Source: Rhodospirillum centenum SW (GTDB taxonomy: Bacteria; Pseudomonadota; Alphaproteobacteria; Azospirillales; Azospirillaceae). From it: a stretch of 64,000 nt of DNA. The stretch lies in the NCBI RefSeq assembly GCF_000016185.1, contig NC_011420.2:248001-312000 (forward strand), read 5' to 3'. Numbering within the stretch: position 1 is the first letter of the stretch; every line of letters starts with the position of its first letter. Below are positions 45,495 through 61,483 of this stretch, piece after piece. A model generated the notes under the pieces. It ran no database searches. It was not told the origin of the DNA and saw only the letters and a list, made by a program, of their open reading frames with translations. The position numbers were made by a program, and so were the translations under genes.

Positions 45495-45563
45495 GGTTAA
45501 GGCCCCAGCGTGAAAGTGGTGATGACGACATTCGTCGGGTTGCCGGACCCTTCCCCGAATTCA

Positions 45564-45581
45564 GTGTCAGGACACCGACAG
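45564..45581 (-). promoter_or_regulatory. candidate Pho box for the TonB receptor-phoD operon
   Basis: On the reverse strand CTGTCGG-TGTC-CTGACAC matches the PhoB direct-repeat layout CTGTCAT-N4-CTGTCAT: two CTG(T/A)C starts exactly 11 bp apart. It lies 70 bp before the receptor ATG, a suitable -35-overlapping position. The second repeat deviates at one base of the core. The rest of the 393-bp gap 45495-45887 shows a second candidate on the plus strand and no small gene. Confidence 0.5.
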
Positions 45582-45731
45582 TCCAATGAACCTTTTGCGT
45601 TGCGGCGAAAGGGGGGCTTGCACTGCGCTTCCGGTGCCACAGGCCGGAAGACGGCCGGATACGGTGAGAGCCACCCTGGCGGCCGCCGCTGTGCGGACCG
45701 GGCGTCACCACGCCGCGGACGGCGGGGGCGC

Positions 45732-45760
45732 CCGTCACCGAACCTTCACGCGGGTTACAC
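45732..45760 (+). promoter_or_regulatory. candidate Pho box for the TonB receptor-phytase operon
   Basis: Three heptamers at exact 11-bp spacing, CCGTCAC (45732), CCTTCAC (45743) and GTTACAC (45754), match CTGTCAC at 6, 5 and 4 of 7 positions. They lie 128 bp before the receptor ATG on the same strand. PhoB binds tandem 11-bp repeats of this kind in alphaproteobacteria. The decay in match from first to third repeat is common in such boxes. Confidence 0.45.
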
Positions 45761-45887
45761 GCGGCCGACATGGCCGCCCTCTAGATCGGGCCGCATCCGA
45801 CCCGGCGGGTCTTCTCCCCGGCCCCGGTATTCCTCGATCCGCCCCCGCCGGCCGCCGCGGACGGCCCTCCCAGACAGGCTTACGACC

Positions 45888-48167
45888 ATGACGTCCTGGC
45901 ACCGCCCGCGGCTGACGGCCGCCCTGCTGCTTTCCGCCCTGTCCCTGCCCGCCCTCACCGCCCCCGCCCTGGCCCAGGAAGCCCCAGCGCCGCAGGGCGG
46001 TACGGCCGGTGGTACGGCCGGGACGGCAGCCGGCAAGGCGGCTGTCCGCCAGGAGATCGAGGAGATCATCATCACGGGGACGATCGCCTTCCGGAACCGG
46101 ACCAGCGATCCCAACCCCGTGCTGGCCTACGACCTGGAGTACTTCCAGCGTTTCGAGCCGGTCTCGGTCGGCGAGATGCTGAAGCGGGTGCCGGGCGTCA
46201 CCTTCACCTCGGACGTGCTGGAGTACGACGCCGTGCAGATGCGCGGCCTGCCGGCGGGATACACCCAGGTTCTCATCAACGGCCGCACCGCACCGGGCGG
46301 TGAGGCCGACCGCAGCTTCTTCGTGGACCGCATTCCGGCCGAACTGGTGGAGCGGGTGGAGATCGTCCGCGCCCCGCGCGCCGATCAGCCCAGCGAGGGC
46401 GTGGCCGGCACGCTGAACGTCATCACCAAGGACAGCGCCAGATTCGCGGGCGGCTTCGCCAAGATCGGCGGGCTGATCAACGATGACGGCAAGATCCGCC
46501 CGTCGGCCGCCGTGGCCTATGCCGATACCCTGCGCAGCGGCGACACCTCCTACTGGGTGGCGCTGAACTACCAGGGGCGGCGCAATCCGAAGGAGAAGGT
46601 CACGGACTTCTACGACGGCGACTTCGAGGAGTTCACCGGCCGCGAGCTGCAGTCCGACACCCGTGACGGCGTCGATATCTCCGCCAACGGCGAGCTGACG
46701 ACGACGCTGGGCGGTGGCTCGCTGCGGCTGTTCGGTCTGGTCGTGGACACCGACCGCGACGAGGACGAAACCTCCCTGACCTATGAAGGCGACAGCCCGG
46801 CGGCGCTGGAACTGGACGAGGTGGAGATCCAGCGCGAGCGCATCGGCCAGCGCACCTATGCCCTGGGGGCCGAGGCCACCCTGCCGCTGGGTGCGGGGGA
46901 CCTGGGGCTGGCAGCCGGCTGGTCGGGTTTCCGCGAGGATACGACGGCCGAGACCGACGAAGGCGACACCGTCGCGGAGGCCGGGCTGGTCGAGCGGGAG
47001 ACCCTGGACACCGACGATGACGAGGTCACCGGCACCGTCAGCTACCGTTTCGGTCCGGAGGGCTTCCGCACCAAGCTGGGCGTCGACCTGCTGCACAAGA
47101 AGCGGGACAACGCCGAACGCACCTTCGAGATCGACGGCGGCGACGTCGAGGAGGAGACCCCGCCGGGGGCCATCTACACGATCAAGGAGACGCGCATCGA
47201 CCCCTATGCCCGCCTGTCGCTGGATCTGACCGACCGCGTCATGCTGGACCTGGGTGCCCGCTACGAGATGACCGACCGTGAGGTGGACAGCGACGGCGAG
47301 GACGGCTCGCACGATTCGAAGAACCTGAACCCGTCGGCGCATCTGCGCTACAACCCGACGGCATCCGACCACTTCCTGCTGTCGGTCGCCCGCACCGTCC
47401 GCCGGCCCGACTACGACCTGCTGGCGCCCTACCGCCAGGAGGAGGAACCGGCGGACGATGACGAGCTGATCGGCAATCCGTCGCTGGCGAACGAGATGGC
47501 CTGGGGCATCGACGTCGGCTACGAGCGCCAGATCGGCCGCCGCGGCATCTTCGGCGTCAACGTCTTCTACCGCGATGTCACCGATGTCATCGAACTGGTC
47601 AATACCGGCGAGGAGGCGGAGGCCGGCGGCAGCGTCTATCAGGCGCGCAACATCGGTGACGGTGAAACCTGGGGGGTGGAGGCGGACCTGTCGCTGCCGC
47701 TGGATTTCGCGGGCCTGCCGGACACGGGCGTGTTCGCCAACTACACCTGGCTGGACAGCAGCATCACCGACCCCTTCACGGGCGAGGACCGCCGCTTCAA
47801 CAACCAGCCCCGCCACGTCTACAATGTGGGCTTCATTCAGACGCTGCCGTCCTGGGACGTGAGCTTCGGTGCCTCGCTCTCCGGCCGCAGCGGCGCCGAG
47901 GAGTCCTCTCTGGACGAGACGATCGACCTGCGCTACGGCCAGGAACTGGAAGCCTTCATCGAGAAGCGGTTCGCAGAGCGCTTCGTGCTCCGGCTGACCG
48001 GCACCAACCTGCTGAACCGCAAGAAGAAGGAGGATTTCCGCTTCTTCGACGGCGACTCCGTCGCGGAGATGCTGGAAGCCCGCCGCACCGGCGATGTGGA
48101 CGAGGCCGAGAAGGAGCGGGAGGAATCCGGTGCGCTGTTCCAGGTCACCCTGCGCGCCGCCTTCTGA
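45888..48167 (+). CDS. TonB-dependent receptor paired with phytase
   Basis: 759 residues with signal peptide (ALLLSALSLPALTAPALAQ). The TonB-box-like IEEIIITGTIAF is followed by plug segments VGEMLKRVPGVTF, YTQVLINGRTAPGG and ERVEIVRAPRADQ. A very acidic barrel (many Asp/Glu in loops) ends LFQVTLRAAF. It is 31 bp upstream of a beta-propeller phytase gene. Receptor-phytase pairs of this type are known in Proteobacteria and are thought to take up inositol phosphates; acidic loops could bind them through Ca2+. It is divergent from the other receptor-phoD operon. The ATG at 45888 has only a weak ribosome site. Confidence 0.9.
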   Translation: MTSWHRPRLTAALLLSALSLPALTAPALAQEAPAPQGGTAGGTAGTAAGKAAVRQEIEEIIITGTIAFRNRTSDPNPVLAYDLEYFQRFEPVSVGEMLKRVPGVTFTSDVLEYDAVQMRGLPAGYTQVLINGRTAPGGEADRSFFVDRIPAELVERVEIVRAPRADQPSEGVAGTLNVITKDSARFAGGFAKIGGLINDDGKIRPSAAVAYADTLRSGDTSYWVALNYQGRRNPKEKVTDFYDGDFEEFTGRELQSDTRDGVDISANGELTTTLGGGSLRLFGLVVDTDRDEDETSLTYEGDSPAALELDEVEIQRERIGQRTYALGAEATLPLGAGDLGLAAGWSGFREDTTAETDEGDTVAEAGLVERETLDTDDDEVTGTVSYRFGPEGFRTKLGVDLLHKKRDNAERTFEIDGGDVEEETPPGAIYTIKETRIDPYARLSLDLTDRVMLDLGARYEMTDREVDSDGEDGSHDSKNLNPSAHLRYNPTASDHFLLSVARTVRRPDYDLLAPYRQEEEPADDDELIGNPSLANEMAWGIDVGYERQIGRRGIFGVNVFYRDVTDVIELVNTGEEAEAGGSVYQARNIGDGETWGVEADLSLPLDFAGLPDTGVFANYTWLDSSITDPFTGEDRRFNNQPRHVYNVGFIQTLPSWDVSFGASLSGRSGAEESSLDETIDLRYGQELEAFIEKRFAERFVLRLTGTNLLNRKKKEDFRFFDGDSVAEMLEARRTGDVDEAEKEREESGALFQVTLRAAF

Positions 48168-48198
48168 GATGTCCCGCCAGAGAGGACCGGAACCGACA

Positions 48199-49548
48199 AT
48201 GACGCGCCTGCCCTTCCCCGCCGCCCCCGTCCTGGCCCTGCTGCTTCTGGCCGGGGTCGCCTGCGCCGCCCCGGTGGCGCCGGTCGCCACCGTGCAGCCG
48301 TCCCTGGAAACCGCGCCCGGGCTGCCGGACACGCCCGACGAGGCGGATGCGGACGACCCCGCCGTCTGGCTGCACCCGACCGACCCGGCCCGCAGCCTGA
48401 TCATCACGGCCGTGAAGGATGCGGGGCTGCGGGTCTACGATCTGCAGGGCCGGCTGGTACAGCGCGTCGAGGCGGCCAGGGCGGGCGCCGACGGGCTGCC
48501 CGGCCGCTACAACAACGTGGATGTGGCCTATGGTCTGGCGCTGCCCGGGGGCGGCGTCATGGACGTGGCCGTGGCCAGCGACCGCGGCCGCGACCGGATC
48601 ATGGTCTGGCGCATTGATCCGAACTCGGCGGCGACGCCGCTGGCCGACGTCACCGACCCGGAGCAGCCGCGGGTGTTCCCGACCCGGCGCGCCCCCGACG
48701 GCAGCGGCGAGATCGCCAATCCCGCCGCCGACCAGCGCAGCGCCTATGGCCTGACCACCTGGAAGGGGCCGGACGGGCACCGGGTCATCGTCGCCCAGCG
48801 CAAGGAGGCCCGGCTGGTCGAGCACCGGCTGGTCGTCAACCCCGACGGCACGGTGGGCCATGTCCGTCTGCGCCACTGGGACTTCCCCTACAGCCACCGT
48901 GGTCAGTCCCTGACCGCCGAGGACGACCACGACCCGGCCCGGGACTGGCAGCCGCAGTTCGAGGGACTGGTCGTCGATCAGGAGCGCGGCATCCTGTTCG
49001 CCGGGCAGGAGGATGTCGGGCTCTGGCGCGTGAACCTGACGACGGGCACGGCCGACGCCGCCCCGTTCCATGAGACCCGCGGTTCGACCCGCTCCCCGTT
49101 CGACAACCGCGCCAGCCGGGTGGCGCGGGACGTCGAGGGGTTGGCGCTCTATTACGGGCCGGAGGGCACCGGCTATCTGGTAGCCTCCAGCCAGGGCGAT
49201 GCCCACGGCGACGAAAAGGCGCCGGACCCGGAGGGTCTGGACGACACCTTCGCCGTGTTCGAGCGCGGCGGGGACAACCGCTACCTGGGGTCCTTCCGTA
49301 TCGTCGCCGGCGGCGGCGTGGACGGCGTGCAGGAGTGCGACGGTGCAGAGATCGTCAGCTACGCCCTGCCGGGGTTCCCCAACGGGCTGATGGTCGTGCA
49401 GGACGGCTACAACGATGACCTGAACGGCCTGTCCGGCGAACCGGAGGCCACCAACTTCAAGTATGTGGACTGGAAGGCCATCGCCGGCAGCTTCGACCCG
49501 GCCCTGATGGTGACGCCGCAGGCCTGGACCCCGCGCCCCACCCCCTGA
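48199..49548 (+). CDS. beta-propeller 3-phytase, exported
   Basis: 449 residues with an N-terminal export segment (PFPAAPVLALLLLAGVACA) that includes a lipobox-like LAGVAC, so it may be a lipoprotein. The BPP-family signatures are ADADDPAVWLHPTDPARSLIITAVKDAGLRVYD, RYNNVDVAYG, the Ca2+-binding RSAYGLTTW, and DVEGLALYYG with NRYLGSFRI. Six blades bind calcium and phytate, releasing phosphate stepwise from inositol hexakisphosphate. The start at 48199 follows GAGGA by 12 nt. It is in an operon with the TonB receptor upstream and is closed by a strong hairpin terminator. Confidence 0.92.
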   Translation: MTRLPFPAAPVLALLLLAGVACAAPVAPVATVQPSLETAPGLPDTPDEADADDPAVWLHPTDPARSLIITAVKDAGLRVYDLQGRLVQRVEAARAGADGLPGRYNNVDVAYGLALPGGGVMDVAVASDRGRDRIMVWRIDPNSAATPLADVTDPEQPRVFPTRRAPDGSGEIANPAADQRSAYGLTTWKGPDGHRVIVAQRKEARLVEHRLVVNPDGTVGHVRLRHWDFPYSHRGQSLTAEDDHDPARDWQPQFEGLVVDQERGILFAGQEDVGLWRVNLTTGTADAAPFHETRGSTRSPFDNRASRVARDVEGLALYYGPEGTGYLVASSQGDAHGDEKAPDPEGLDDTFAVFERGGDNRYLGSFRIVAGGGVDGVQECDGAEIVSYALPGFPNGLMVVQDGYNDDLNGLSGEPEATNFKYVDWKAIAGSFDPALMVTPQAWTPRPTP

Positions 49549-51932: not shown

Positions 51933-51957
51933 ACCGGGGCCCACCGGACGATGGTGC

Positions 51958-51988
51958 CCGGACGGGGTGGAGTGTCCACCCCGTCCGG
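51958..51988. terminator. perfect 14-bp hairpin between convergent genes
   Basis: CCGGACGGGGTGGA and its exact complement flank a 3-nt GTG loop, between the stop of the first MCP and the stop of the convergent Cache protein gene. There is no T-run on either strand. The exact symmetry and position fit a shared bidirectional transcription end. Confidence 0.72.
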
Positions 51989-51995
51989 TCCTGGC

Positions 51996-52439
51996 TCACT
52001 TGTAGTATCCGACGGCGCAGACCTGATCGTCGGCCTTGGTCACGTAGGTGATCTTCTGCACCGGCTCCGTCTCACCCGGGCGCGGCCACATGTAGCTGAC
52101 TTCGGAGATCTTGCCCTCGGTAGCCGTAGCATAGATCTCTTCCCCCAGCGCCTTGCCGGTCTTGTCCTTCAGGTCGCGCAGGCTCTTGCCGGTAAGGGTC
52201 GGGTGGGCCGTGAACATGCCGTCCGGCCCGCCGCAGAAGGGATAGAGGTCGCGGTCCTTGAACCCGCCCTCGCCTGCGGCGAACTGGCGGAGCGCCTTGT
52301 CCTTGTCCTGCTGGATCGCCGTGACGGCACGCTCCAGCATCGCCTTGGCCTCGTCCGCGGTGCCGAAGTCGGCCGCATGGGCGCCGACCGCCGCGAACAG
52401 CAGGGTGATTACCAGTCCGATACGCATGGGCACTTTCAT
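51996..52439 (-). CDS. free-standing periplasmic single-Cache protein
   Basis: 147 residues: signal peptide (MKVPMRIGLVITLLFAAVGAHA), then only one Cache-2-type domain. It carries DLYPFCGGPDGMFTAHPTLTGKSLRDLKDKTGKALGEEIY and SEVSYMWPRPGETEPVQK. That last part closely parallels the sensor of the neighbouring MCP ([14 protein letters not shown]). It has no membrane anchor, HAMP or signalling domain, so it is a secreted ligand-binding module. The ATG at 52439 has GGGAGG upstream. It lies tail-to-tail with one MCP and head-to-head with the next. It may act as a soluble receptor partner or ligand buffer; other free-standing Cache proteins exist but their roles are poorly defined. Confidence 0.85.
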   Translation of the reverse strand: MKVPMRIGLVITLLFAAVGAHAADFGTADEAKAMLERAVTAIQQDKDKALRQFAAGEGGFKDRDLYPFCGGPDGMFTAHPTLTGKSLRDLKDKTGKALGEEIYATATEGKISEVSYMWPRPGETEPVQKITYVTKADDQVCAVGYYK

Positions 52440-52973
52440 CGGGGCCTCCCGGTGGCCGTTGTTCTGAGGGTGTGAATGCCTGAGTGCGTCAGGCCCTCTT
52501 GGACAGGCTCTGGTGACGCAACCGTGGACCGCATGCTGCTGCGCAGCGCTCCACGACCGAAAGCCGGTGCCCCCGGTCCGGCCCGCCCGGACCAACCCCG
52601 AACGCAACCGGGGCGGGTGGACGGCGGGCCTGTCGGCGGACATCGGGGCAGACTTCCGGCCCGGGAATCGACCCATGCGGCCCCCATCGCTGTCAATAAA
52701 AAACCCACGCAACCGGCAGGGACTCAAGGAGGAATCTCCCTTCCGCGGCCGGCAGCCCACCGACCGGACTCCCGATTCCTCCTTCCGGATGGTTCGCGGA
52801 GGGATTGCCGGAATATTAATGTTCGTTCCGCAATAGTGGGCTACTCATGCCGGAGGCCGCCAAGGCTGCTTTCACCATACCCGCGTAACGCGGCCCGCCC
52901 ACCGGCCGCACCAGAGATGCCCTCCGCCTTCCCCGGTTCCACAGCACGGACCACCCGATCCAGGATCCCGCCC
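52440..52973. other. 534-bp divergent gap between Cache protein and second MCP genes
   Basis: It holds promoters for both neighbours. AT-rich spots are at 52695-52712 (TCAATAAAAAACCC) and 52808-52830 (CCGGAATATTAATGTTCG). An inverted repeat TTCCGG-N19-CCGGAA spans 52783-52813. TAAA at 52700 with GC at about +15 is at best a poor sigma-28 match. No frame looks coding. Confidence 0.45.
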
Positions 52974-54776: not shown

Positions 54777-57413
54777 ATGCCGCACAGTGCTGATACCACG
54801 CTCCCCGCCGCCCCCGTTGACAGGGGCGCGGGCCCCCTCCCCTTCCTCTCCCTGCTCCGCCGCCTGCTGCCCTGGGCCGTCGCCGTCCTGGTGGCCTCTC
54901 TGGCGGTCGTTGCCGCGGGCCGGCTGCGCGCGGAGTTCGACCTCGCCGCTCTGGGCCGGGAGGTGGCGACCCTGCCGGCCGCGGCCCTGGCCGGCTGCGT
55001 CCTGTTCACGCTCGCCAGCTACACCGCCCTGGTCGGCTACGACCTGTCCGCGCTGCGCTGGATCGGGGCGCGGCTGCCGCTGGCGCGCGCCGCGATGGGC
55101 AGCTTCGTCGGATTCGCCTTCAGCAACACGCTGAGCTTCACCGCCTTCAGCGGCGGCGCCATCCGCTATCGTCTCTACACCTCCGCCGGGCTGTCGGGCA
55201 TGCAGGTGGCCAAGGCGGTGTTCTTCCTCAGCACCGCCTTCATGGTCGGGATCAGCCTCGTCGGCAGCGTCGGGCTGTGGCTGGCGCCGGAGCGCGCGGC
55301 ATCGGTGCTGCACCTGCCGCCGGGGGCTGTCCGGTCCCTGGCCGTGACCGTCGCGCTGACGGTTCCGCTTCTGCTGCTGGCAGCCGCCCTGCGGCGCCGG
55401 CCGCTGGTGCTGCTCGGCCGCGAGATCACGCTGCCGGGGGCGAAGCTGCTGCTGATGCAGCTCGTCATCTCCACGGCCGACATCGCCTTTTCCGCGGGGG
55501 CGCTCTATGTGCTGCTGCCGGCCGACGCGCCTGTCGGCTTCGCCGCCTTCGCCGGTGTCTACTGCGCCGCCATCGTGCTGGGGCTGCTGAGCCATCTGCC
55601 CGGCGGCATCGGCGTGTTCGACGGCATCATGATGCTGGCCCTGGCCGACGCCGTACCGGCGGAGCGCATGGGGGCCGCACTGCTGGTCTACCGCGCCGTC
55701 TATTACCTGCTGCCGCTGCTGGCGGCGGTGGCGCTGCTGGCCGGGCATGAGGGCCGCGCCCTGCGCGGCCGCCTGCCGCTCGCGGATCTGCACCGCCGGG
55801 CTGCGGACGCGCTGCGGCTGGGACGGGGGGCGCTGCCGGCGGCCGCTGCCGCGGTGGCCGTGACGGCCGGGATCGTGCTGCTGGTCTCAGGCGCGCTGCC
55901 GGCGGTGCCGGGCCGCGTGCATGCGGCGGCGGCGCTGGTCTCCCTGCCCGTGGTGGAGGTGTCGCACATCCTGAACAGCGTCGTCGGGCTGGGTCTGGTC
56001 CTGATCGGACGGGGGCTCTACCAGCGGCTGGACAGCGCCTGGACCCTCACCATGGGGCTCCTGGGGGCCGGCGTCGTGCTGAACCTGCTGAAGGGCCTGG
56101 ACTGGGAGGAGGCGGTGATCCTGGCCGGCTGCGCCGCGATCCTGTGGGCAGCGCGGGAGGAGTTCTACCGCCGCGGCTCCCTGACCGAGGTGCGGCTGAC
56201 CCCCGGCTGGGTGCTGGGCAGCGCCGGGCTGGTGGCGGGGGCCGTGGTGCTGACCCTGTTCGCCTTCGAGCATGTCGAGTACCGCGATGCGCTGTGGTGG
56301 CAGGTCGCCACCACGGCCGACGCGCCGCGCAGCATGCGCGCCCTGGTGGCGACGGGCGTGGCGCTGCTGGGCCTGTCCCTGCACACCCTGCTGCGGCCCG
56401 CCCCGCGGACGACGCCGCGTCCCGATGCGACGACGGTGGAGCGCGCCGCGGCCCTGCTGCCGGCCTCGCCCCGCACCGAGGGCAATCTCGTGCTGCTGGG
56501 CGACAAGGCCGTCCTGTTCAACGAGGCCGGCACCGGCTTCCTGATGTACGGGGTGCGGGGGCGGAGCTGGATCGCCATGGGCGACCCGGTCGGCCCGGTA
56601 GAGACCTGGCCCGATCTCGTCTGGTCGTTCCGCCAGATGGTCCACCGCCACGGCGGACAGGCCGCCTTCTACCAGGTCCGTCCCGAATCCCTGCCGCTCT
56701 ACCTGGACGCCGGGCTGCTGCCCGTGAAGATCGGGGAGGAGGCGCGCGTGCCGCTGGCCGGCTTCGACCTGGAGGGGCCGGAGCGGCGCGATCTGCGCTA
56801 TGCCGTGCGCAAGGGCGGGCGCGACGGGCTGAGCTTCGCCCTGGTCGGACGCGACGAGGTGCCGGCGATCCTGGACGAGCTGCGCACCGTGTCGGACGGC
56901 TGGCTGGCCGGGCGAAAGGTGCGGGAGAAGGGATTCTCCGTCGGCTGGTTCGACCCGGACTATCTGAGCCGCTTCGACCATGCCGTGGTGCGCCACGAAG
57001 GACGGATCGTCGCCTTCGCCAACATCTGGGCCGGGGCGCCGGGCGGCGAGCTGAGCGTGGACCTGATGCGGCACCGGCCGGACGCCCATCCCCTGACCAT
57101 GGATTTCCTCTTCGCCCACCTGATGCTCTGGGGGACCGGAGCCGGCTTTTCCTGGTTCAATCTGGGGATGGCGCCGCTCTCCGGCCTGACGGGGCGGCCG
57201 CTGGCGCCGCTCTGGCACCGGCTGGGGGCCTTCGTCTTCAAACGCGGCGAGCCCTTCTACGGGTTCCGCGGGCTGCGCCAGTACAAGGAGAAGTTCCGTC
57301 CGCGCTGGGAGCCCCGCTACCTCTGCTCCCCCGGCGGGCTGGCCCCGGCCACCATCCTGGCCGACGTGGCGGCCCTGGTGGCGGGCGGGCTGGACGGTAC
57401 CATCGGGAAGTGA
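54777..57413 (+). CDS. mprF: bifunctional aminoacyl-phosphatidylglycerol synthase and flippase (MprF/LpiA)
   Basis: An 878-residue integral membrane protein. The N-terminal two thirds have about 14 TM helices, including the flippase signature segments SFVGFAFSNTLSFTAFSGGAIRYRLY and SHLPGGIGVFDGIMML. The cytoplasmic C-terminal DUF2156 synthase domain (about 545-865) has LLGDKAVLFNEAGTGFLMYGVRG, DPVGP, the YAVRKGGRDG segment and FWxLxx-like WFNLGMAPLSG. It transfers an amino acid (commonly lysine) from tRNA to phosphatidylglycerol and flips the product, lowering negative surface charge. The acvB-type gene 13 bp downstream encodes the matching hydrolase, as in Agrobacterium lpiA-acvB. Confidence 0.93.
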   Translation: MPHSADTTLPAAPVDRGAGPLPFLSLLRRLLPWAVAVLVASLAVVAAGRLRAEFDLAALGREVATLPAAALAGCVLFTLASYTALVGYDLSALRWIGARLPLARAAMGSFVGFAFSNTLSFTAFSGGAIRYRLYTSAGLSGMQVAKAVFFLSTAFMVGISLVGSVGLWLAPERAASVLHLPPGAVRSLAVTVALTVPLLLLAAALRRRPLVLLGREITLPGAKLLLMQLVISTADIAFSAGALYVLLPADAPVGFAAFAGVYCAAIVLGLLSHLPGGIGVFDGIMMLALADAVPAERMGAALLVYRAVYYLLPLLAAVALLAGHEGRALRGRLPLADLHRRAADALRLGRGALPAAAAAVAVTAGIVLLVSGALPAVPGRVHAAAALVSLPVVEVSHILNSVVGLGLVLIGRGLYQRLDSAWTLTMGLLGAGVVLNLLKGLDWEEAVILAGCAAILWAAREEFYRRGSLTEVRLTPGWVLGSAGLVAGAVVLTLFAFEHVEYRDALWWQVATTADAPRSMRALVATGVALLGLSLHTLLRPAPRTTPRPDATTVERAAALLPASPRTEGNLVLLGDKAVLFNEAGTGFLMYGVRGRSWIAMGDPVGPVETWPDLVWSFRQMVHRHGGQAAFYQVRPESLPLYLDAGLLPVKIGEEARVPLAGFDLEGPERRDLRYAVRKGGRDGLSFALVGRDEVPAILDELRTVSDGWLAGRKVREKGFSVGWFDPDYLSRFDHAVVRHEGRIVAFANIWAGAPGGELSVDLMRHRPDAHPLTMDFLFAHLMLWGTGAGFSWFNLGMAPLSGLTGRPLAPLWHRLGAFVFKRGEPFYGFRGLRQYKEKFRPRWEPRYLCSPGGLAPATILADVAALVAGGLDGTIGK

Positions 57414-57426
57414 CGGGCGCACGGTG

Positions 57427-58788
57427 ATGGGACGAAGACTGCGGACCGCGGTCCTGCTGACGGGAACCCTGCTGGCGTTGGGCGCCGCCCTCGCGTTGGT
57501 CATCGGCCCGAAGGACCCTGCGCCGCGCCGGCTGGACGGCGGTGAGGCGGGCACGCTCCGCCTCTACGGGCCGGCGGGCGCCGTCGGCCGGGTCGTCGTC
57601 GCCCTGTCGGACGGGACCGGCTGGGCCGATGCGGACGACCGGGTGGCGCGGGCGCTGGCCGGGGACGACGCCCTTGTGGCGGGCATCGACCTGCGGGAGA
57701 TGGCGGCCGCGCTGAACCACCAGACCGACGGCTGCCACTGGATTTCCGGGAAGCTGGAGGCGGTGAGCCGGCTCGTGCAGCAGCACGAAGGGCTGCCGCG
57801 CTATCTGACGCCCGTGCTGCTGGGCCGGGGGGCCGGCGGCATGGTGGCCTACGGGGCGGCGGTGCAGGGGCTGGGCGGCATGTTCGCCGGTGCCCTCGCC
57901 CTCCGCCCGGGGGCGACGATGCCCTTCGTGGCGCCGATCTGCCTGGGCGTGGAGAGCGTGGCCGTGCCGGGCGGCCGGCGTTATCCCCCGCTCGACCGGC
58001 AGGAGACGCCGGTGACCCTGCTGGATGCAGGGGCGGAGAGCGTCGCCGGCAGCGGCATCGAGCGGGTGGAGGGAGCCGCGGACCTGGCCGACCTGCGCCG
58101 CCGGGTCGTAGCCCTGGCCCCGGCGCAGGAGGACGGTGCTGCCGCCGAGGATCTGCCGGTGGTGGAACTGCCGGCGGAGCGGCCGGGCGACACGCTGGTG
58201 CTGTTCTGGTCGGGCGACGGCGGCTGGCGCGACATCGACGCGACCATCGGGGAAGCCCTGGCAGCGGCCGGGGTGCCGGTGCTGGGCATCGACAGCTTCA
58301 GCTATTTCTGGCACCGCCGCAGCCCCGCCGAGGTCGCGCGCGACATGGACGCGCTGATCCAACGGCAGAGCGCGCGCTGGGGCACGCGGCGCGTGATCCT
58401 GATCGGGTTCAGCTTCGGCGCGGCCATCCTGCCGGCCGCGGTCAACGCCCTGCCGGCGGAGAGCCGTGCGCAGGTCGCCGCCCTCTGGCTGCTGTCGCCC
58501 GACCGCAAGGCGGACTGGGAGATCAACGTGGCCGCCTATCTGGGCGGGGACGGCGACGGCGCCTCCCCCGTCGCACCCGAGCTGGCGGGCTTGCGCGGTC
58601 TGCCGGTCCACTGCGTCCATGGCAGTGCGGAGTCGGCGGACAGTCTCTGCACCGATCCCGCGGCGACGGGGCTGATCCGCCTGGAACTGCCCGGCGACCA
58701 CCATTTCGACGGCGACTATGACCGCGTGGTGCGGGCGATTCTGGCGTCCCTGCACAGCCGGCCGCACGCGCCCGTCGGCGCAGGATGA
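57427..58788 (+). CDS. acvB: AcvB/VirJ family aminoacyl-phosphatidylglycerol hydrolase
   Basis: 453 residues with an N-terminal signal (MGRRLRTAVLLTGTLLALGAALALVIG). The first half (about 40-230) is an AcvB-specific alpha/beta domain (VVVALSDGTGWADADDRVARAL). The VirJ domain begins at PVVELPAERPGDTLVLFWSGDGGWRDID and has nucleophile VILIGFSFGAAILPA, Asp in the LWLLSPDRKADWE region and His in PGDHHFDGDYDRV. In Agrobacterium, AcvB hydrolyses lysyl-phosphatidylglycerol from the periplasmic side, counteracting LpiA/MprF. Its coupling 13 bp behind mprF matches that pair. A GTG directly before the ATG is an alternative start. Confidence 0.9.
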   Translation: MGRRLRTAVLLTGTLLALGAALALVIGPKDPAPRRLDGGEAGTLRLYGPAGAVGRVVVALSDGTGWADADDRVARALAGDDALVAGIDLREMAAALNHQTDGCHWISGKLEAVSRLVQQHEGLPRYLTPVLLGRGAGGMVAYGAAVQGLGGMFAGALALRPGATMPFVAPICLGVESVAVPGGRRYPPLDRQETPVTLLDAGAESVAGSGIERVEGAADLADLRRRVVALAPAQEDGAAAEDLPVVELPAERPGDTLVLFWSGDGGWRDIDATIGEALAAAGVPVLGIDSFSYFWHRRSPAEVARDMDALIQRQSARWGTRRVILIGFSFGAAILPAAVNALPAESRAQVAALWLLSPDRKADWEINVAAYLGGDGDGASPVAPELAGLRGLPVHCVHGSAESADSLCTDPAATGLIRLELPGDHHFDGDYDRVVRAILASLHSRPHAPVGAG

Positions 58789-58855
58789 AGACCGGACTGG
58801 AAGCGCCTGTCTTCCGGCGGGAAGATGGAAACGGCCGGATGGCGGCGGAAACGTG

Positions 58856-61483
58856 ATGATGGGCGCGATGAGAGTGACAGGAACCGAAGCCCCCTGCTGG
58901 TCGGAGCCGGCCGATGCGGTGGCCGAGAGGGCGGGCAGCGGGCGGGACGGGCTGACGACCGCGGAAGCCGCGGCCCGCCTTGCTGCCACCCGGCGGCGGG
59001 GAAGCGGCGACAGTGCGCTGCTCGCGGCGGTGCGGCTGTTCCTGCGCCAGATCCTCAGCCCCCTGGTGCTGATCCTGCTGTTCGGCGCCGGCGTTTCCGC
59101 CGTGCTGGGCGACTGGATGGATACCGGCATCATCCTGACCATCGTGCTGGGCAGCGCGCTGCTGAGCTTCACGCAGGAGTTCCGGGCCTCGGCCGCCGTG
59201 GCGGAACTGCGCCAGCGCCTCTCGCTCAAGGCGACCGTCCTGCGCGACGGCCAGCCTGTCAGGATCGACGCGACGGAGGTGGTGGCGGGCGACGTGGTGC
59301 TGCTGTCCGCCGGCAACCTGGTTCCGGCCGACGGCATCCTGCTGGAAGCCAAGGACCTGCTGGTGGCGGAGGCGGCGCTGACCGGCGAGTCCTTCCCGGT
59401 GGAGAAGCAGCCCGGCGTGCTGCCGGCGGCGACCGAACTGGGTGCCCGGAGCAACTGCCTGTTCCAGGGCACCTCCGTCCGCTCCGGCACCGGCCGCCTG
59501 CTGGTCGTCGCCACGGGCGACGCCACGGAACTGGGGCGGATCGGCTTCCGGCTGCGTACCGCCCCGCCGGAGACGGACTTCGCCCGCGGCCTGCGCCGTT
59601 TCGGCATCATGCTGACGCAGGTGATGCTGGTCATCGTCGTGCTGGTGCTGACGATGAACCTGCTGCGCGACCGGCCGCTCGCGGAGACGCTGCTGTTCGC
59701 CGTGGCGCTGGCCGTGGGGCTGTCGCCCGAGCTGCTGCCGGCCATCGTATCGGTGACGCTGTCGGCCGGTGCCCGCGCCCTGGCCCGCACCGGGGTCATC
59801 GTCCGCCGCCTGGAGGCGATCGAGAACCTGGGCAGCATGGACATCCTCTGCACCGACAAGACGGGGACCCTCACCCAGGGCATCGCCCGCCTGGACCGGA
59901 CGCTGGACCCGGACGGCGCCCCGTCGGACGAGGTGCTCCGCCTCGCCTTCCTGAACGCGGCCTTCGAAACGGGGATCGAGAACCCGCTGGACGCCGCGAT
60001 CACGGAGGCCGGCAGAGCGCGGGGGCTGGATACCGCCGGCTGGCGCAAGATCGACGAGATCCCCTACGACTTCGTGCGGCGGCGCCTGACGGTGGTCGTG
60101 GCCGGGGGCGGCCCGGGCAACCTTCCGCCGGGCAACCTTCCGCCGGACAGTCATCTGCCCGACAGCCACCTGCCCGACAGCCACCTGCCCGACAGCCACC
60201 TGATCGTCACCAAGGGAGCGGTCGAGCCGGTGCTGGACTGCTGCACCGTCCTCGGCCTGGAGGCGCCGCGGCCGCTGGACAAGGACGCCCGCGCGGCGAT
60301 CCTGGAGCGGTTCCAGCGCCTGGGCGGAGACGGGTACAGGGTGCTGGCGCTGGCCGCGCGGCGGGTCCCGGCCAGGGCCGCCTACGGCCACGGGGACGAG
60401 GCGGAGATGGCCTTCCTGGGCTTCCTGCTGCTGCGCGACCCACCGAAGCCCGATGCGGCGGCAACGCTGGACGATCTGCACCGGCTGGGCGTGCGGACCA
60501 AGATCATCACCGGCGACAACCGCCACGTCGCGGCCAGTCTGGCACGGGAGGTCGGGCTGGACCCGGCGGCGCTGCTGACCGGCGCCGATCTGGACCGTCT
60601 CTCCGACGATGCCCTGTGGCACCGGGCGCCGCGTACCGACCTGTTCGCGGAAGTCGATCCGCAGCAGAAGGAGCGGATCATCCGGGCCCTGCGGCGGGCC
60701 GGCCATGTCGTCGGCTACATGGGCGACGGCGTGAACGACGCGCCGGCGCTGCACGCCGCCGACATCGGCATCTCCGTCGAAGGGGCCGTGGACGTGGCGC
60801 GGGAGAGCGCCGACATCGTGCTGCTGCGGCCGGACCTGGGGGTGCTGCGCCAGGGCATCGAAGACGGGCGCCGCACCTTCGCCAACACCCAGAAGTACAT
60901 CGCCATCACCGTCAGCGCCAATTTCGGCAACATGCTGAGCATGGCCGTGGCGTCGCTGGTGCTGCCGTTCCTGCCCATGCTGGCGAAGCAGATCCTGCTG
61001 AACAACTTCCTGTCGGATTTTCCCTCGGTCGCCATCTCCACCGACCGCGTGGATCCTGAGTCGATCCGCCGACCGCCGCGGTGGAGCATCCGGGAAATCC
61101 GGCGCTTCATGCTGGTCTTCGGCATCGTCAGCAGCCTGTTCGATGTCCTGACGTTCGCCCTGCTGCTGCTGGTCTTCGACGCCTCCGAGCCGTTGTTCCA
61201 GACCTCCTGGTTCTTCGTCTCGCTGCTGACGGAACTGATGGTGGTGCTTGTGCTGCGCACCCGCCGTCCGGCCTTCGGAAGCCGGCCGGGCCTGTTGCTG
61301 CTGGCCTCCACCCTTGCGGTCGCCGGGCTGGCGGTCGCCATCCCCTATGCCGGCTGGCTGGCCGGCCCGCTGGGCTTCGTCCCGCTGCCACCGGCACTGC
61401 TGGCCACGCTGCTGGGCGTGGTGGCCCTCTATGTGGCGGCGACGGAACTGGCCAAGCGCCGCTTCTACCGGGCGGCTCCCTGA
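58856..61483 (+). CDS. mgtA: magnesium-translocating P-type ATPase (P3B)
   Basis: About 875 residues. The P-type core is complete: actuator LTGESFPVEK, phosphorylation site ILCTDKTGTLTQG (Asp near 334), hinge GDGVNDAPALHAADIG, and Mg-type TM segments LSPELLPAIVSVTLSAGARALA and LLNNFLSDFPSVAISTDRVD. It imports Mg2+ with ATP at the inner membrane. Length is slightly under E. coli MgtA (898). The nucleotide-binding domain carries an inserted Pro/Asp/His pentapeptide repeat (421-449). The start is unsure (58853, 58856, 58859 or 58868). It lies 67 bp behind acvB, same strand. No mgtC or leader gene is seen. Confidence 0.93.
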   Translation: MMGAMRVTGTEAPCWSEPADAVAERAGSGRDGLTTAEAAARLAATRRRGSGDSALLAAVRLFLRQILSPLVLILLFGAGVSAVLGDWMDTGIILTIVLGSALLSFTQEFRASAAVAELRQRLSLKATVLRDGQPVRIDATEVVAGDVVLLSAGNLVPADGILLEAKDLLVAEAALTGESFPVEKQPGVLPAATELGARSNCLFQGTSVRSGTGRLLVVATGDATELGRIGFRLRTAPPETDFARGLRRFGIMLTQVMLVIVVLVLTMNLLRDRPLAETLLFAVALAVGLSPELLPAIVSVTLSAGARALARTGVIVRRLEAIENLGSMDILCTDKTGTLTQGIARLDRTLDPDGAPSDEVLRLAFLNAAFETGIENPLDAAITEAGRARGLDTAGWRKIDEIPYDFVRRRLTVVVAGGGPGNLPPGNLPPDSHLPDSHLPDSHLPDSHLIVTKGAVEPVLDCCTVLGLEAPRPLDKDARAAILERFQRLGGDGYRVLALAARRVPARAAYGHGDEAEMAFLGFLLLRDPPKPDAAATLDDLHRLGVRTKIITGDNRHVAASLAREVGLDPAALLTGADLDRLSDDALWHRAPRTDLFAEVDPQQKERIIRALRRAGHVVGYMGDGVNDAPALHAADIGISVEGAVDVARESADIVLLRPDLGVLRQGIEDGRRTFANTQKYIAITVSANFGNMLSMAVASLVLPFLPMLAKQILLNNFLSDFPSVAISTDRVDPESIRRPPRWSIREIRRFMLVFGIVSSLFDVLTFALLLLVFDASEPLFQTSWFFVSLLTELMVVLVLRTRRPAFGSRPGLLLLASTLAVAGLAVAIPYAGWLAGPLGFVPLPPALLATLLGVVALYVAATELAKRRFYRAAP
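60116..60202 (+). repeat. 15-bp in-frame minisatellite within mgtA
   Basis: Six 15-bp units encode GNLPP, GNLPP, DSHLP, DSHLP, DSHLP and DSHL. The last three DNA copies (60158-60202) are nearly identical (CCCGACAGCCACCTG), and the first of the four DSHL units has two base changes. Unit size is divisible by three, so copy-number change keeps the frame. It sits between the strand LTVVVAGG and LIVTKGAVEPVL of the nucleotide-binding domain. Confidence 0.92.

Follow-up and report, generated by a model that had tools for sequence, protein, structure and literature searches.

We propose, with a probability of roughly 0.6, that the lone Cache gene at 51996..52439 of the window (the whole 64,000-nucleotide stretch of DNA analysed here) encodes a small, soluble, periplasmic single-Cache protein, held by a disulfide and equipped with a carboxylate pocket, which would act as a diffusible ligand binder for a receptor or transporter encoded elsewhere. 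This proposal draws its direct support from the gene itself, the fold of its product in a confident model, the conserved pocket residues, the co-variation of two cysteines and the absence of conserved linkage, and it is further supported by related lone Caches that are paired with receptors. At a broader level, the chances are about even that free-standing Caches are periplasmic binding proteins of a new class, in which a chemoreceptor has been split in two and the Cache is the separate ligand-binding half, the membrane half having a helical domain. The window's orthologous family would then be a form whose gene moved out of the operon and whose product acts on a receptor in trans, perhaps with more than one type of output. 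A trans role for the window's own gene is a more tentative proposition.

Fold, pocket and cysteine pair of the lone Cache protein

The gene lies on the minus strand, with its ATG at 52439 and its stop codon ending at 51996, and its 147-aa product (P0001) comprises a putative signal peptide at about residues 1-22, judged by eye (MKVPMRIGLVITLLFAAVGAHA|ADFG), and a Cache domain at about residues 28-147. In the Pfam scan, the cut-offs are passed by Cache models only (sCache_2, PF17200, with 39.4 bits over a cut-off of 25, and dCache_2 with 42 bits, over its own cut-off), Cache_3-Cache_2 and RHH_6 remaining sub-threshold. The MCPsignal domain is absent from the same scan, so that P0001 is not itself a chemoreceptor (MCP); the protein has neither transmembrane helices nor an output domain, and the SBP profiles of Pfam give no match at E up to 0.1. 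The exact coordinates, the Cache-only Pfam matches and the by-eye signal peptide bear out the description, given in an earlier sequence-only reading of this DNA, of a secreted lone Cache between two chemoreceptor genes.

The AlphaFold2 model of P0001 (mean pLDDT 90.8) has the single-Cache fold, and the solved structures closest to it belong to single-Cache sensors, namely 4k08 (Z 13.7 over 123 residues, rmsd 3.9), 2qhk (Z 13.0, 124 residues, rmsd 5.8) and 5g4y (Z 13.0, 121 residues, rmsd 5.2), with a Foldseek E of 3.1e-7 to 4exo. In the account of PscD from which we take the pocket contacts, propionate is hydrogen-bonded by Tyr90, His103, Tyr143 and Lys156 (PMC5062169). The pocket of P0001 is lined by Y66, F68, H79, G99, Y116, W118 and K129, and all four hydrogen-bonding residues of PscD find an equivalent there, as Y66, H79, Y116 and K129 respectively, the pairing of H79 with His103 requiring a three-residue gap, since another residue occupies this position in the ungapped alignment. 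These four are kept in 88/88, 85/88, 87/88 and 88/88 orthologues, a set made up of the 80 listed loci described below, seven orthologues from related genomes and the window gene. PscD Trp145 corresponds to W118, which is kept in 85 of the 88. The correspondence does not extend to all seven pocket residues: the position of Trp92 is taken by F68 (Phe or Tyr in 81/88), and that of the back-wall Phe126 by Gly99, a glycine in every one of the 88. As a consequence of this last replacement, the pocket may accept an acid longer than C2/C3, and we infer from the sequence comparison that P0001 binds carboxylates in a pocket deeper than that of PscD.

The cysteines C69 and C141 are both present in 87/88 orthologues; among 48 distant relatives, five have both and 43 have neither. 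Such joint presence or joint absence is what is expected of a disulfide. In the P0001 model, the two residues belong to strands 67-70 and 139-146, and strands of this type adjoin each other in the topology of the PAS/Cache fold. With the four pocket residues kept and the cysteine pair co-varying, P0001 probably binds small carboxylates as a soluble, disulfide-bonded protein.

Orthologues and their genomic surroundings

A scan restricted to one genome per species found 86 orthologous loci, of which the 80 listed have 50-82% identity and come from Azospirillum, Rhodopseudomonas, Geobacter, Azotobacter, Accumulibacter, Magnetococcales, NC10 and others. By tblastn and motif, one of the 80 listed loci (L046) has an MCP signalling domain in its fetched stretch, encoded on the opposite strand; in 66 of the 80, the fetched stretch extends 2 kb or more to either side of the lone gene. 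About 5.6 MCPs would be expected near the 80 loci, an expectation built on the MCP density of the window genome and not on that of each locus's own genome. In the same-family genome that has the closest copy (L118, 73% identity), no MCP occurs within 5 kb of it. Among the seven related-genome orthologues, L120 and L123 do have a divergent MCP, with a sensor that looks NIT-like by eye, and L123 has a further MCP 3.3 kb downstream. The functional gene trio suggested by the sequence-only reading is thus not borne out, and the linkage to MCP genes that it had expected in relatives fails for the window gene. The window genome, a single contig, contains 34 MCPsignal matches, close to the 33 MCP genes given for Rhodospirillum centenum in a passage of its genome publication (PMC2890560), and in the light of this abundance and of the lack of conserved linkage, the place of the lone gene between two MCP genes is most simply a coincidence.

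Clustering of the ORFs of the 80 listed loci and the window revealed no cross-phylum neighbour beyond coincidences of two or three loci, shared neighbours appearing at the level of genus or class (Accumulibacter and kin, Rhodopseudomonas). The automatic gene choice of this clustering missed the second MCP of the window (MCP2) and, in some loci, the lone ORF itself, which is why MCP presence was counted separately by tblastn and motif. Upstream of 76 orthologues and the window gene, FNR-box and sigma-54 sites show no trustworthy enrichment (0, 1, 1 and 3 of 77 against 0.02, 0.22, 0.16 and 1.44 expected, from shuffles that preserved base content only).

These surroundings bear on the proposition that P0001 is a periplasmic buffer, scavenger or transport-associated organic-acid binder unrelated to taxis. 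It would account for the strong sequence conservation across phyla, for the absence of any link to signalling genes and for the presence of an orthologue in genomes without a detected MCP: of 50 orthologue-bearing genomes, our own choice out of the 80 listed loci, 45 have MCPs and five have none detected, all five being MAGs that may be incomplete. The last observation argues against an MCP as the sole partner of the family. However, the want of a conserved neighbour across phyla means that there is no conserved transporter either, and Cache domains are otherwise sensory modules, as a passage of the 2016 Cache survey presents them (PMC4822843). We therefore consider a role outside taxis unlikely, if still worth bearing in mind.

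Several features of the window lie apart from the lone gene. A phytase (PF02333, 173.6 bits) at 48130-49548 stands directly behind an ORF at 45510-48167 that resembles a TonB receptor by eye, which suggests a phytate-utilisation pair. A lysyl-phosphatidylglycerol synthase (PF09924, PF03706) followed by a VirJ-family protein (PF06057) occupies 54777-58788, possibly as a lipid-modification pair, and 15-bp tandem repeats with the units CCGGGCAACCTTCCG and GCCCGACAGCCACCT lie at 60113-60202, inside an ORF at 58718-61483 that is P-type-ATPase-like by eye.

Proposed split pairs in relatives and the two neighbouring receptors

Distant lone Caches (26-41% identity) were searched in the window genome and in 58 related ones, 59 in all. 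Outside the window genome, 55 matches look free-standing, 54 of them in frames of at most 306 aa and one (L157) in a frame of 612 aa; seven are the related-genome orthologues of P0001 (51-73% identity) and the other 48 are the distant relatives mentioned above. In 23 of the 48, a receptor gene follows directly downstream on the same strand. The MCP signalling domain is present in 20 of these receptors, two more (L135 and L143) end with their contig after the sensor domain, and one (L148) lacks the MCP domain, having a sensor domain of the partner type and a HAMP-like stretch. In the latter locus, the receptor frame of 383 aa is followed by a frame that looks EAL-like by eye (L148:3880-5519), and the split design may serve other outputs. 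The intergenic gap ranges from -21 to 90 nt in the 19 cleanly called lone Cache-MCP pairs. The partner receptors have no Cache, and their periplasmic part, between two membrane helices, looks all-helical; because Pfam recognises 4HB_MCP_1 in only 4/20 and TarH in 2/20 of these domains, the term four-helix bundle is for most partners a prediction. Two observations speak against the split-pair reading: the remaining 25 of the 48 have no such receptor alongside, and a 100-row tree does not separate the paired lone Caches from the solo ones. One subgroup from a single genus (L136, L138, L139, L140 and L144) has no adjoining receptor; L136 and L139 are each preceded by a long ORF on the same strand, the two ORFs sharing a stretch near their start.

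A model of 20 partner helical domains (A1) was run on 289 genomes of the class, 26 of which have matches at E 1e-6, and on 398 genomes of the phylum, 15 of which have matches at E 1e-12; match counts in both searches are lower bounds, since scoring in each genome was limited to the first 10 or 7 candidates. There are at least 37 class-level matches, seven of them outside the first fetch, and one of these seven was added (G010:C3, as L217). Among the matches listed, 14 are strong (E 1e-17 or better) and concern receptor domains outside A1, namely 13 and L217: a lone Cache lies directly upstream in nine, downstream in two and in neither place in three. Two of the nine (L186 and L203) share their lone gene with L135 and L143 of the set of 48, and a third (L188) has a weak Cache match (E 2.7e-11). 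The 14 weaker fetched matches of the class (E 3.8e-16 to 3.0e-8) have no lone Cache within ~1.5 kb. Among 16 new phylum-level matches listed at E 1e-12 or better, the lone Cache is upstream in four and downstream in one, with none within ~1.5 kb in 11. The A1-type MCPs devoid of a lone Cache count against universal pairing.

The upstream pairs occur in ten family-level groups (f1, f2, f3, f36, f42, f93, f99, f107, f159 and f181), f181 lying outside the window's class and the f36 case being a weak Cache match. In a mirror-tree comparison of the 27 of 33 pairs that have an intact MCP motif, the distances of Cache and partner domain are correlated (Mantel r 0.74, p 0.0005), with a partial r of 0.69 given the signalling-domain distance and r 0.36 among divergent pairs only. 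We read these pairs as probable split chemoreceptors, an arrangement that suggests a two-part sensor with its ligand-binding half free in the periplasm.

The idea that a lone Cache serves as co-receptor of a membrane receptor, put forward by the sequence-only reading, therefore gains ground from the 23 of 48 distant relatives paired with all-helical receptors; it does not extend to the window gene, which is convergent with the Cache MCP and divergent from MCP2 and is not part of such a same-strand pair. Nor is the paired arrangement found in any of the seven related-genome orthologues or the 80 listed orthologue loci.

The proposition that P0001 is the ligand-binding subunit of MCP2 must be weighed against the same data. 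MCP2 is encoded on the plus strand from about 52974, a start taken from the translation (the longest ORF begins at 52476), to 54647, and is thus a divergent neighbour of the lone gene. It combines MCPsignal, detected by Pfam, with an all-helical periplasmic domain, for which four long helices were modelled from the single sequence (pLDDT 84.1 in the best of five models and 59.0-78.5 in the other four), the general architecture of the split-pair receptors. However, its domain fails the A1 model, the best match in the whole window genome having an E of 0.297, and the orthologues of the lone gene do not stand beside such MCPs, with any MCP in 1/80 listed loci and the divergent NIT-like receptors in 2/7. 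As a partner of the A1 type, MCP2 is rejected, its helical domain being of another type, and a pairing of P0001 with this receptor would seem improbable.

A more intimate relationship had been proposed with the other neighbour, P0002 (49935..51932, plus strand, 665 aa), which has an sCache_2 sensor at residues 43-187, HAMP and MCPsignal. At its C-terminus, residues 565-644 resemble PilZ, with a score of 20.6 bits that falls short of the cut-off (22.5); if real, this stretch would link the receptor to cyclic-di-GMP. The sequence-only reading suggested that P0001 is a co-receptor or decoy of P0002, possibly arisen by duplication of its sensor. The genes are indeed adjacent and the homology is real (24/60 identities, E 3e-12 in a single comparison), with a largely shared carboxylate pocket. 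The 14-residue motif cited in favour of this relationship agrees with the P0002 sensor at 8/14 positions, but it agrees at 9/14 with the solved sensors 4k08 and 5g4y of other species, and whole-protein searches with P0001 place 4k08 (38.2 bits) level with the P0002 sensor (38.7 bits), with 5g4y at 33.1 bits. The similarity does go beyond the bare fold, pocket residues being held in common, but these are common to the sensors of other species as well, so that the likeness is that of a generic sCache_2 core, with nothing special to the neighbour.

The phylogeny points in the same direction. In the 100-row tree, composed of 25 of the 80 orthologue loci, seven family orthologues, the window gene, 57 other lone Caches and 10 MCP sensors, P0001 falls inside a clade of 33 orthologues that includes other phyla (SH-aLRT 97), while the P0002 sensor groups with other MCP sensors (84); the alignment is short, and the deep forks are accordingly weak. 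In a 97-row version, from which the long-branch rows L188, L147 and L172 were dropped, the AU test rejects a grouping of P0001 with the P0002 sensor (p-AU 0.0001), which, together with the equal likeness of other-species sensors, rules out an origin of P0001 by duplication of its neighbour's sensor. Above-cut-off sCache_2 matches in the window genome are confined to the lone gene, P0002 and two tandem MCP genes with sCache_2 sensors at G000:C1:940195-943640.

The linkage of the two genes (one of 80 listed loci) gives no support to a co-receptor or decoy role either, and the genes are convergent. The stretch between them (51933..51995) holds a 14-bp hairpin, the folding of 51938-51995 giving an MFE of -36.9 kcal/mol (z -2.95, 0/200 shuffles as good), and with this hairpin between convergent genes they look like separate transcription units. 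P0002 is neither the source nor a demonstrated partner of the lone domain, and the role of co-receptor or decoy derived from it is highly improbable. As for a remnant of a broken receptor gene, which the single domain devoid of output might recall, it has practically no chance of being correct, being refuted by the conservation of the free-standing form, with its signal-peptide-like start, at 50-82% identity in 80 listed loci of many phyla and by pocket residues invariant across orthologues.

A proposed diffusible ligand binder and its known counterparts

Our preferred reading of P0001 as a diffusible ligand binder can be formulated as follows. The protein would be a single Cache domain free in the periplasm, owing to the lack of a membrane anchor, and held by one disulfide, its pocket gripping a small organic acid by the carboxylate group. 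Its gene belongs to an old orthologous family spread across many phyla and would be transcribed on its own. Most probably it works like a solute-binding protein, the ligand-bound state being passed to a receptor or transporter in the membrane whose gene lies elsewhere. In the split pairs, the soluble Cache would bind a small acid and then dock on the helical receptor, and the window gene may play the same role in trans, with MCP2 as a mere candidate for the partner. Secretion, the disulfide, the carboxylate ligand, separate transcription and the partner in trans are what we infer for P0001.

Compared with the sCache_2 sensors of chemoreceptors (PscD of Pseudomonas syringae, 5g4y; Adeh_3718, 4k08; V. 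parahaemolyticus, 4exo), P0001 is alike in fold (Z 12.4 to 13.7) and has the carboxylate-bonding residues in common, whereas it stands apart as a domain detached from membrane helices and output. It further differs from PscD in the invariant glycine replacing the back-wall phenylalanine, in the added cysteine pair and in a loop three residues shorter after the pocket histidine. According to the 2016 Cache survey, every protein in which a Cache domain had been identified also had an output signalling domain, and the models were built from regions between two membrane helices (PMC4822843). What is already known of proteins such as P0001 includes their database annotation as cache domain-containing, as in the account of Rhodopseudomonas palustris rpa3751, which is likened to P0001 by this annotation and is described there as being among the top twenty growth-associated genes in a neural-network model for lignin breakdown products (PMC12844201). 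A full-text search of open-licence papers in PubMed Central found neither lone nor split Cache receptors described.

Among published split receptors, CetAB of Campylobacter and Magnetospirillum comes closest, a gene pair there encoding the small sensory protein and the MCP of which the receptor is made (PMC12442639). The split Cache pairs resemble it in that a small sensory protein and an MCP are encoded as a pair. They differ from it in their sensory half, which comes with a signal peptide and a ligand pocket of the Cache type, whereas CetB is a cytoplasmic FAD-binding PAS protein (PMC12442639); P0001, with its Cache models and by-eye signal peptide, is likewise not of the CetB type.

If it is true that soluble Caches exist without output and that some are paired with receptors, ligand binding and signalling would be separable into two genes, in parallel with binding-protein-dependent taxis, and lone Caches would become candidate ligand binders for helical-domain receptors of unassigned ligand. 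In E. coli, maltose-binding protein docks with the four-helix MCP Tar, to which it presents its ligand. The likeness that we propose lies in the combination of a soluble ligand binder with a helical receptor domain, although maltose-binding protein is two-lobed and the lone Cache fold comprises about 120 residues; in the paired relatives, the receptor gene comes right after that of the lone Cache.
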